From: Vallitalea pronyensis
GTDB lineage: Bacteria > Bacillota > Clostridia > Lachnospirales > Vallitaleaceae
Assembly (NCBI RefSeq): GCF_018141445.1
Contig: NZ_CP058649.1
Coordinates: 391,001 to 455,000, forward strand
Direction: 5' to 3'
DNA: 64,000 nucleotides
The notes below the pieces were generated by a model. The model made no database searches. It was not told where the DNA came from and worked only from the letters and a program-made list of their open reading frames with translations. Below, piece by piece: positions 5,998 to 62,503 of the stretch. The stretch's first letter is position 1, and each line of letters opens with the position of its first letter. Both the position numbers and the translations under genes were made by a program.

Positions 5998-6215
5998 CAC
6001 TAGCCAAGTAGATGGTGAGGTATCGAAAACCTGCGATTTTTAAATCATCGTTAGAAAACCTTAGTGAATGAAAAGATAACTTCTGTTAAGAAACTTAAGT
6101 GTCTGAGCTTGCGAGTTCTTAAGTTTTAAGAAGTTATCTTTTCATGAACTTAGGCTTTCTTCGATGATTTAACATGAGCAGTTTTTTGATACCTCACCAT
6201 CTACGTATGTCTTGC
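5998..6215 (-). repeat. Long-hairpin element, copy A
   Basis: An imperfect palindrome of about 218 bp. The outer arms start at GATGGTGAGGTATC and close at GATACCTCACCATC. On the minus strand it begins GCAAGACATACGTAGATGG, ends CTACTTGGCTAGTG, and has the apical core with AACTCGC and TCAGACA inside an AAACTTA/TAAGTTT stem. It shares ends and core with copies B-E. It fills the gap between fumA and the CAP-SLH gene. Flanks on the plus strand are C-rich (5941-6000: 16 C, 5 G; 6221-6280: 19 C, 6 G). Confidence 0.85.
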
Positions 6216-21817: not shown

Positions 21818-22033
21818 GCAAGACGGCGTAGAGGATGCTATGGCTAAATGCAGCTTATGCTAAAGCGTTGAAGAAAAACTAAGCGCGCTGTGACCGATCT
21901 TACTAAACCTTAAAACTCCCATTGGTCAAACACTTAAGGTTTTTAACGTAAGATCAGTCACAGCTTGCTAAGATTTTCTAACAACGCTTTAGAAGTCGCT
22001 GCATTTAGCCATAGCATCCTCTACTGGGCTGGT
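21818..22033 (+). repeat. Long-hairpin element, copy B
   Basis: About 216 bp, imperfect palindrome. Begins GCAAGACGGCGTAGAGGATGC and ends GCATCCTCTACTGGGCTGGT. Arms pair over about 95 bp (GGATGCTATGGCTAAATGCAG with CTGCATTTAGCCATAGCATCC). Core stem AAACCTTA/TAAGGTTT encloses AACTCCC and GGTCAAACA. It separates mnmE from mnmG. The 50 bases after it (22031-22080) contain 21 G and 1 C. Confidence 0.87.
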
Positions 22034-39508: not shown

Positions 39509-39601
39509 GTATATGGTGATGTGGTTAATAGGAGTTGCTTTTAAGACTCTTGTATATGGTGATGTGGTTAATGTGGGTTGCTTTAAGGTTTCCGTATATG
39601 G
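39509..39601 (+). repeat. 43-bp tandem repeat at the left edge of element C
   Basis: Two units (39509-39551 and 39552-39593), both starting GTATATGGTGATGTGGTTAA and containing GTTGCTTT, plus an eight-base start of a third unit that runs into element C. Confidence 0.7.
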
Positions 39602-39800
39602 ATAGGTATAGATAATCAGTTCATGTTAAATAATCGAAGAAAATCTAAAGAGCATGGAAAGATAGATTCCTAAAACTTAAAACTCGCAAGCTCAGACAAT
39701 TAAGTTTTTTAACGGAATCCATCTTTCCATGCTCTAAGTTTTTCTAACGCTTATTTAAAAATCACTGATTATCTATACCTATCCATATACTGGGCTGATT
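39590..39800 (+). repeat. Long-hairpin element, copy C
   Basis: About 211 bp. Arms: GGATAGGTATAGATAATCAG pairs with the matching end before CTGGGCTGATTGG. Inner arms GAGCATGGAAAGAT and ATCTTTCCATGCTC. Core AAACTTA/TAAGTTT around AACTCGC and TCAGACA. The 5' end conserved in A, B, D and E is replaced by the tandem repeat. Right flank 39801-39840 has 21 G and 1 C. Confidence 0.85.
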
Positions 39801-40361: not shown

Positions 40362-40590
40362 CAACTAGCCTAGTAGATAGGAGAATGGGTATTATAAAGT
40401 CGTGATTTTTAAAAGAGTCTTAGAAAAGGTTGGTGAACGGAAGAGGTATTTCCGTATAAAAGCTTACTTGTCTGACCGTAGGGAGTTGTAAGCTTTAGGA
40501 AATACCTCTGGAGTGAACCTTATCTTTTCTTAGGCTCTTTTAAGTTGAACAACTTTATAATACCCATTCTCCTATCTACGAATGTCTTGT
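40362..40590 (-). repeat. Long-hairpin element, copy D
   Basis: About 229 bp, in the opposite orientation to C. On the minus strand it begins CAAGACATTCGTAGATAGG and ends CTACTAGGCTAGTTG. The outer arm GATAGGAGAATGGGTATTA pairs perfectly over 25 bp. Core stem AAGCTTAC/GTAAGCTT around AACTCCC and GGTCAGACA. The plus-strand flank on its left is C-rich. Confidence 0.87.
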
Positions 40591-40740
40591 ACTCACTTAT
40601 TATTAACACAAAATGTTTCTTTCATGGCAATAAACAGGGGAAGAGCACCTAATACTATGCTGATTATAGTTACAGCTACACTTGAACAAACAATATTGTG
40701 ACTTATTAATACATCTTTGAGGCGTTTGATTGTTTTGAGA

Positions 40741-40756
40741 TGTTTCACGTGAAACA
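40741..40756. promoter_or_regulatory. parS: parS site 1
   Basis: TGTTTCACGTGAAACA, the perfect 16-bp ParB loading site, about 200 bp upstream of parA. Confidence 0.95.
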
Positions 40757-40786
40757 ATAGACCAATGATAGGTGTTAAATAAAATA

Positions 40787-40802
40787 TGTTTCACGTGAAA
40801 GA
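40787..40802. promoter_or_regulatory. parS: parS site 2 (imperfect)
   Basis: TGTTTCACGTGAAAGA, two bases off the palindrome at its right end; 46 bp after site 1. Confidence 0.85.
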
Positions 40803-40821
40803 TACTAGGGGGGAGGCCAAT

Positions 40822-40837
40822 TGTTTCACGTGAAACA
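40822..40837. promoter_or_regulatory. parS: parS site 3
   Basis: TGTTTCACGTGAAACA, perfect, 35 bp after site 2 and about 120 bp before parA. Clustered sites allow efficient ParB spreading. Confidence 0.95.
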
Positions 40838-40919
40838 TTTTGTAAGCCATAAGAACCAGAAAAAATAGTGTTTCTATCGGATAAGTTAAAAAAGCATAGA
40901 TTCAAAAAATAGAATATGA

Positions 40920-49258: not shown

Positions 49259-49339
49259 ATAAAAATCATTGAAATATAAAATCATATGGATTATAATAAA
49301 TAAAAGAATTGCTATGATGGAAAATAAGATTGCCTTCGT

Positions 49340-49536
49340 TTTTAAGAGAGTCAGTGGTTGGTGAAAACTGATAAAATGAAACAATCTGTCCACTTCCGGA
49401 GTAACTGATGATGAATCAGAGGTTAGTCACCTTTATCAAACTATACAAGAGATTATAGCCCAATGGGCTGTAATAATTTGGGTGGCAACGCGGAGATACC
49501 TTTCGTCCCATGATTTCATGGGATGGAAGGTTTTTT
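49340..49536 (+). promoter_or_regulatory. T-box riboswitch upstream of serS
   Basis: T-box leader: an AG-rich 5' start (AAGAGAGTCAGTGG), a stem I arm, the T-box sequence TTTGGGTGGCAACGCGG at 49477-49493 and a terminator (CCTTTC, TCCCATGA and complements) ending in TTTTTT at 49531-49536. Uncharged tRNA-Ser should pair with the T-box and free serS transcription. A specifier UCC in the CTTCCGGAGTA region is a guess. The stem I arm is rather short. Confidence 0.88.
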
Positions 49537-60936: not shown

Positions 60937-61507
60937 CTTATCACCAGCTTTCTGTTAGAGCCTCGTAGATGCATGAAATTGCGTTATCTATTATTATATC
61001 ATTTATTGGGTAGGTGTAAAACAGTTTAGTGGATTTAAATGTGTTTCTTTTTTAAATGGCTTAGATAATGGTTGTGGGTATGAAATTGTGGGATGGGGTT
61101 AGACTAGATGTAAGGATGTACAGAGTTAGTCAAAGGCTATTGCATGAAAAGATGCAGAATAATATGGTATGTGCAAGACGGCCGTAGTTAGATAGGTATC
61201 GTTAATCTGTTCAGGTTAAAGAATGCGAGAAATACTAAGCAAACGGTAAGCTGAATGCCTAAAACTTATAACTCGCTGACGCTCAGACACATAAGTTTTT
61301 TTACGGCATTCAGCTTTCCGTTTACTAAGAATTTCTATGCATTTTTTAAACATCACAGATTAACGATACCTATCGACCTACTAGGCAAGTGTGAAGGGGC
61401 TAGGGGTAAACGGTGGGTATACGAGTGATGGAATGGTATTGAAGGTTGTGGGTATATGGTGTATAATTTTTTAGAGCGAATTATATTATGAAAGGATGGT
61501 ATAAAGC
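60937..61507. other. Gap between the SNF2 gene and pgmB
   Basis: 571 bp with element E in the centre. Both flanks are G-rich on the plus strand (for example 61391-61440: 22 G, 3 C). No ORF is supported. A promoter for pgmB should lie between 61390 and 61500 but is not clear. Confidence 0.5.
61173..61390 (+). repeat. Long-hairpin element, copy E
   Basis: About 218 bp. Begins GCAAGACGGCCGTAGTTAG, ends CTACTAGGCAAGTG. Outer arm GATAGGTATCGTTAATCTGT pairs with ACAGATTAACGATACCTATC without mismatch; inner arms pair over about 50 more bases with few mismatches. Core AAAACTTAT/ATAAGTTTT encloses AACTCGC and CTCAGACAC. The clearest copy. Confidence 0.9.
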
Positions 61508-62432: not shown

Positions 62433-62461
62433 TTGACTTTTCAATTATACAATTGTATAAT
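62433..62461 (+). promoter_or_regulatory. Promoter of blaI-blaR1
   Basis: TTGACT, 17-bp spacer, perfect TATAAT. The first operator dyad overlaps the spacer and -10. Confidence 0.8.
62445..62460. promoter_or_regulatory. BlaI-type operator 1
   Basis: TTATACAATTGTATAA, perfect 16-bp dyad over the -10. BlaI/MecI repressors bind TACA-type dyads in the same way; occupancy would block polymerase. Confidence 0.75.
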
Positions 62462-62470
62462 GAAATCATA

Positions 62471-62486
62471 TTATACAATTGTGTAA
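62471..62486. promoter_or_regulatory. BlaI-type operator 2
   Basis: TTATACAATTGTGTAA, one base off the dyad, centre 26 bp from operator 1. Two sites fit cooperative or double BlaI dimers. Confidence 0.75.
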
Positions 62487-62503
62487 TTGAAAAGGAGTGG
62501 AGT

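Follow-up and report, generated by a model that had tools for sequence, protein, structure and literature searches.

The described systems closest to the element reported here are the REP, REPIN and BIME repeats with their RAYT genes (REPtron, TIRtron), which are interspersed intergenic palindromes, form inverted dimers and hairpins that keep certain mismatches, and fall into species-specific families. In excerpts of PMC3733652, REP is defined as a small palindrome of 20 to 40 bp, and long, partly self-complementary TIRs are reported around RAYT-like genes. MITEs are likewise short, non-coding, multicopy, recently duplicated and hairpin-forming. Intergenic stem-loops of about 100 to 200 nt, such as ERIC, YPAL, Bcr1, Efa-1 and other stem-loop repeats, appear in excerpts of PMC2267715 as families defined by their sequence, each within its species. 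Finally, hairpins have been proposed to arise and persist through template switching, which can generate compensatory changes, as set out in excerpts of PMC8794818; the quasipalindromes corrected in this way show matched two-sided changes and no wobble intermediates, although the term denotes a mutational process rather than an element.

The stretch of DNA analyzed here (64 kb, referred to as the window) contains five hairpins, A to E, of about 198 nt each, with the apex AACTC..TCARACA held constant and the stems changing coordinately (Table 1). The element works like a REPIN or a MITE, that is, as a non-coding foldback unit, and its distinguishing feature is a conserved apex carried on unrelated stems. 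We consider it probable that copy E is an interspersed, non-coding and recently mobile foldback DNA element, with arms kept complementary by template-directed copying and an apex that is read by a trans factor.

Table 1. Hairpin copies in the window and parts of copy E
Feature	Position	Strand	Remarks
Copy A	6008..6204	-	Between fumarate hydratase gene and ORF of uncertain family
Copy B	21828..22024	+	Between mnmE and mnmG; site empty in 5/5 congeners
Copy C	39594..39790	+	Downstream of argS; inverted relative to D
Copy D	40373..40579	-	Faces C; upstream of parA/parB-like genes
Copy E, 198-nt hairpin	61184..61381	+	Feet GTAG (5') and CTAC (3')
Conserved 5' edge GTGCAAGAC, copy E	61171..61179	+	Column conservation; near the similarity start in several near-identical copies
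Left side, conserved asymmetric loop 1 (TTCAGGTTAAA)	61210..61220	+	
Left CTAAG	61235..61239	+	Pairs at 4/5 positions with right CTAAG; central A·A mismatch
Apical module AACTC-GCTGACGC-TCAGACA	61270..61289	+	AACTC 61270-61274, TCAGACA 61283-61289
Right-arm TTTACGG, opposite CCTAAAA	61300..61306	+	Partly unpaired; TTAACGG in most copies
Right CTAAG	61325..61329	+	
Conserved 3' edge TAGGCAAGTG, copy E	61382..61391	+	Consensus TaGGcTAntG

Folded as RNA, positions 61170-61395 reached -96.8 kcal/mol (z -12.3), and none of 200 shuffles did as well. The GTAG at the foot of copy E can pair with CTAC in this fold, and both sides stand out in the column conservation (50 rows, 2 of them spurious). Conserved asymmetric loops were found where GTTCAGG lies opposite AAAATCAC, where CTAAA lies opposite TTAACG below the apex, and at the apex itself. 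An earlier note on this DNA had described the constant apex (AACTC and TCAGACA, the latter reading TCAAACA in copy B) and the stems that change around it, AAACTTA/TAAGTTT in A and C, ACTTAT/ATAAGT in E, ACCTTA/TAAGGT in B and AGCTTAC/GTAAGCT in D, all of which are indeed present. It was also right that CTAAG recurs on both arms, but not that the two copies of this motif cannot pair and so make a conserved internal loop: C-G, T-A, A-T and G-C pairs form at four of the five positions around a conserved single A·A mismatch, and the asymmetric loops lie elsewhere. Among 67 aligned copies, the columns involved were paired in 66 (30-136), 67 (31-135), 66 (35-133) and 66 (36-132).

A covariance model of 153 positions and 43 pairs, built from 38 copies, detected at least 56 full-length copies in the 6.3-Mb genome that holds the window (122 to 159 bits), a number that may be a lower bound since 150 of the 4,094 first-look candidates were scored. 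Across the model these 56 copies were nearly constant in length (152 to 157 nt); the other matches in the same genome were antisense and scored at most 61.5 bits. BLAST searches of this genome missed copies A, B and D. The copies are nearly all intergenic, as judged with a simple ORF caller on 48 of them. No Rfam family matched at the element in the window or at 19 loci of other genomes, near-matches to microRNA hairpins being far below their gathering scores, and sequence look-ups were negative for phages and plasmids alike. Sequence and descriptive searches of open-licence full texts found no description of the hairpin family, which may be published elsewhere.

Several observations argue for recent spread. 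Seven pairs of copies (the artifact L077 left out) share cores that are 94 to 97% identical, at unrelated loci and with mostly unrelated flanks. Within such pairs, similarity sets in at the GTAG foot or up to about 16 nt outside it, frequently at GT(G/A)CAAGAC, and stops about 10 to 25 nt past CTAC, often at CTACTAGGCTAGT; column conservation gives similar edges. These outer edges vary, with some pairs beginning right at the hairpin foot, and pair L004/L007 has weaker shared patches further out. At the one site examined for occupancy, that of copy B, mnmE and mnmG are adjacent without the element in all five congeners. The basal stems of three near-identical pairs differ in matched blocks, with no mismatch in five of the six arm pairs and one in the sixth. 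L086 and L094, for example, are identical at 149 of 155 positions with three adjacent foot base pairs swapped on both arms, and L019 and L067 agree at 147 of 155 with basal stems that are quite different yet fully paired. Such near-identical cores on different basal stems could also reflect gene conversion between old copies instead of new insertions. The recent multicopy spread of a non-coding unit that is typical of MITEs is seen here, with gene conversion as a partial alternative. Unlike in MITEs, the hairpin is enclosed by the edges instead of making up the ends. No autonomous partner was found in the Y1 and reverse transcriptase searches or among the 25 largest protein clusters beside the motif. 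Nor did a target-site duplication come to light; at the single empty site, the DNA between the genes has diverged too far to show a junction.

Two side observations concern these sites. In two of the congeners, the mnmE-mnmG intergenic region (L351 in G005, L352 in G004) carries an unrelated hairpin of about 150 nt, CTCAACTTTCCCAC...GTGGGAAAGTTGAG, which may represent another hairpin family or mark an insertion hot spot. L077 is a contig end at which a hairpin copy has perfect palindromic flanks, probably an assembly artifact caused by the element.

Besides its own genome, the covariance model found relatives in 10 of 58 genomes. Matches were strong in four congeners (G001, G002, G004, G005) and in a member of another family (G055); G003 had a single weak match, and weaker matches were obtained in G020, G042, G046 and G027, of which those inspected have different stems and an identical apex. 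When the apex pattern was searched in 147 genomes of the class, 339 matches were obtained against 13 for a backwards control, 48 of the 339 coming from the own genome, which was included. At least three matches occurred in 17 of these 147 genomes, again counting the own one, with a maximum of 89 (G161). In 18 genomes of other loci, chosen for holding the motif, the corresponding numbers were 366 and 3. The apex pattern was present in at least 119 stretches, whose named records, among the matches listed, include Lachnospiraceae, Selenomonas, Fusobacterium, Halanaerobium, Flavobacterium, Variovorax, Marinobacter, Stenotrophomonas and others. Random windows fold too, 158 of 630 having at least 25 enclosing pairs, so stricter cut-offs were applied: at least 45 enclosing pairs surrounded 59 of 126 apex matches (the other 67 fell short) compared to 15 of 440 random windows. 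The apex sits at the tips of hairpins in many copies, in bacteria of several phyla and on unrelated stems, and the expectation that the loop is conserved in other genomes was confirmed, even across phyla, by both the model and the apex-pattern searches. The distribution is patchy between and within genera. An apex common across phyla on unrelated stems sets the element apart from REP, and the sharing of the apical module only sets it apart from ERIC, YPAL, Bcr1 and Efa-1 as these are characterized in excerpts of PMC2267715.

The likeness to REP raises the alternative that we are dealing with a giant REP/REPIN-like element moved in trans by a RAYT (HUH Y1) transposase. Multicopy intergenic palindromes with a GTAG foot would be expected of such an element, as would inverted dimers, and copies less than 400 bp apart do form seven neighbor pairs (0.2 expected), six of them inverted and five of those with their 3' edges facing. 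Long TIRs at RAYT-like genes are in print (excerpts of PMC3733652), and a RAYT-like gene exists in the own genome and is matched in 83 of the 147 genomes of the class. However, RAYT matches were not associated with the element, occurring in 11 of the 17 carriers (at least three apex matches) and in 72 of the 130 other genomes (p 0.61), which rejects RAYT as a necessary mobilizer. G161, with its 89 apex matches, has neither a RAYT nor a reverse transcriptase match, and the carriers G001 and G002, both 94% complete, lack a Y1 match. None of eight RAYT loci had an apex within about 3 kb (leaving out one loose-pattern match with AACTT instead of AACTC), none of these eight genes is flanked by the hairpins, and in G172 the nearest RAYT lies about 26 kb from an apex among the 14 of 15 RAYT matches listed. 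The hairpin moreover measures 198 nt instead of 20 to 40 bp, and its GTAG is paired at the foot rather than forming a tag outside the stem. Since size, free GTAG tag and RAYT link all failed, we do not file the element under REP and regard mobilization by RAYT as unlikely.

Other candidates fared no better. Reverse transcriptase showed no association: of the 13 carriers and 12 non-carriers tested, seven in each group gave a match. Tolerance of the hairpins through missing SbcCD was rejected, with SbcD above its cut-off in 9 of the 17 carriers and in 57 of the other 130 genomes. No mobilizing gene beside the motif was found among the 25 largest protein clusters shown; in this set, clusters of non-viral loci were ABC transporters or a translated repeat, and those shared by viral loci look phage-like.

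No sign of a functional RNA is rated higher than covariation, and a structured non-coding or cis-regulatory RNA with a selected fold has to be weighed on this ground. We aligned 71 matches, 67 of them distinct (62 loci supplied), from the own genome, its genus and G055. In this alignment, which was fitted to the model structure and leans towards it, 96.8% of 2,879 cells were paired, compared to 73.5% (sd 0.5) in shuffles and 31 to 54% in a control with slid partners; 39 of the 43 pairs changed on both sides (25.1 in shuffles), and the covariation score was 0.586 (0.143 in shuffles). None of 500 shuffles reached any of the five covariation measures. The covariation claimed in the earlier note is thus far above chance in 67 distinct copies. 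The accompanying claim, that the fold is selected or copied as a fold, survives only in part, because G·T is no commoner than A·C. Compensatory two-sided cells numbered 634, against 7 in which one side changed with the pair kept; among the 2,879 cells there were 30 G·T (one slipped column pair contributing 19), 28 A·C and 63 other mismatches, independence predicting about 191 for G·T and for A·C each. This indicates Watson-Crick pairing only, as in DNA rather than in folded RNA. Similarly, G·U made up 57 of the 3,670 RNAfold pairs of the copies (1.6%) but 1,862 of 12,494 (14.9%) in random stretches of the window; the cross-phylum set was less extreme (267 of 5,405, 4.9%). An RNA-maintained helix should tolerate G·U, which the observed helix barely does, and the covariation is therefore no proof of a selected RNA fold. 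It would suit an RNA that unpaired motifs are conserved and that, in 32 of 48 copies, the gene upstream runs in the direction of the element, yet all gene orientations occur, Rfam has no family for the element and related genomes without it are common, so that an RNA reading appears improbable to us.

The low G·U content agrees with a hairpin of DNA, or with copying from arm to arm at the DNA level. Among copies at least 85% identical (86 row pairs), 226 two-sided changes from one Watson-Crick pair to another were found versus 156 one-sided changes, in addition to 31 two-sided changes that were not Watson-Crick on both, and many of the two-sided changes were transversions without a wobble intermediate. 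An excess of matched two-sided over one-sided changes, many of them transversions, is what arm-to-arm copying in DNA predicts, although ordinary selection on a DNA hairpin is a possible source of the compensation. Unlike in the quasipalindromes of PMC8794818, as far as its excerpts go, some mismatches and bulges are here conserved against the process.

We return to the foldback DNA element that we favor. Its unit would span about 200 to 240 nt and consist of the edge GTGCAAGAC, the 198-nt hairpin and the edge TAGGCTAGTG, the working form presumably being a hairpin of DNA, either single-stranded or cruciform. Once one arm has mutated, DNA synthesis templated by the other arm through template switching would restore the pairing; stems would in this way drift as matched pairs while selection holds the unpaired contacts. 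A factor provided in trans may make its contacts at the apical module and at those asymmetric loops that are conserved. It seems to us most likely that the DNA hairpin is read by such a factor, and recognition by a protein is plausible.

For the arrangement of copies relative to genes, two spurious rows were removed, leaving 48 copies with usable flanks, whose flanking-gene orientations were ++ in 25, -- in 10, +- in 7 and -+ in 6. When the parS-like/parAB locus is taken as oriC, 39 of the 56 copies in the own genome point with the fork (p 0.005); this bias was most pronounced in G161, where 71 of 89 do so (p 1e-8) if oriC is assumed to lie at the contig start. The bias may just follow gene direction. 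A host-maintained DNA site selected in place, for replication restart, nucleoid organization or as a recombination signal, and spread mainly by gene conversion would explain this bias and the homogenized core of copies with different basal stems, but the confounding of orientation with gene direction, the patchy occurrence between and within genera, the empty site in congeners and the near-identical copies at unrelated places make it hardly probable.

Two direct pairs of copies at 1.6 kb enclose ordinary-looking genes. At 40740-40844 of the window, three TTTCACGTGAAA-type sites lie directly upstream of ParA- and ParB-family genes; we take TTTCACGTGAAA to be the core of the parS consensus, and this region is likely an origin-proximal partition locus.

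Taken across genomes, the hairpins point to mobile DNA of a type that is widespread and little described. It is conceivable, though we hold it only tentatively, that they form a pan-bacterial class, each member having one long hairpin with AACTC-miniloop-TCARACA as a universal apical address, interchangeable stems rewritten arm to arm by DNA synthesis, and a machinery other than RAYT or reverse transcriptase to move it. If the apex were such a shared address, one factor would serve hairpins in several phyla, and the origin of many unexplained intergenic palindromes would become testable. A large family with textbook covariation that still bears the marks of DNA-level copying is also a natural test case for separating such copying from a functional RNA.

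In many copies, such as L112, L138 and L172, the apex has CGNAG on its bottom strand, and d(GCGNAGC) forms a DNA mini-hairpin of exceptional stability. The apical loop is a different one of 2 to 4 nt in other copies, so CGNAG is not universal. At some Bacteroidetes loci (L179, L180, L113, L128), a small stem with a CTTGAT/CTTGAC-type loop, followed by ATCAAG/GTCAAG, precedes the hairpin, and, as judged by eye, a CTTGAT/ATCAAG-type pseudoknot could form upstream of the hairpins in some phyla. In counts this signal was weak, TCAAG[AGT]C being found upstream in 17 of 125 cases against 5 at random.

Of 92 viral stretches with the apex motif, 80 were read, and many did not look like hairpins by eye. 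Hairpins occur among them only in part, chiefly of the L230 type; in one large group the motif lacks flanking hairpin arms, and another is, from its proteins, presumably filamentous-phage-like. In one group of related viral contigs, matched pairs distinguish copies that apparently occupy one and the same site. In the viral contigs L230, L231, L234, L242, L246, L254 and L307, as well as in a Rodentibacter copy (L174), the CTAAA/TTAACG loop has its left and right sides exchanged with respect to the apex, as if the apex and the sub-apical loop were independent modules.

Elsewhere in the window, a T-box leader (Rfam RF00230, 105 bits) was found at 49305-49513. A near-perfect palindrome at 62437-62494, with 25-nt arms that are 96% complementary, directly precedes a gene of the penicillinase-repressor family (PF03965) and one for a BlaR1-type M56 peptidase (PF05569), and is likely an operator.
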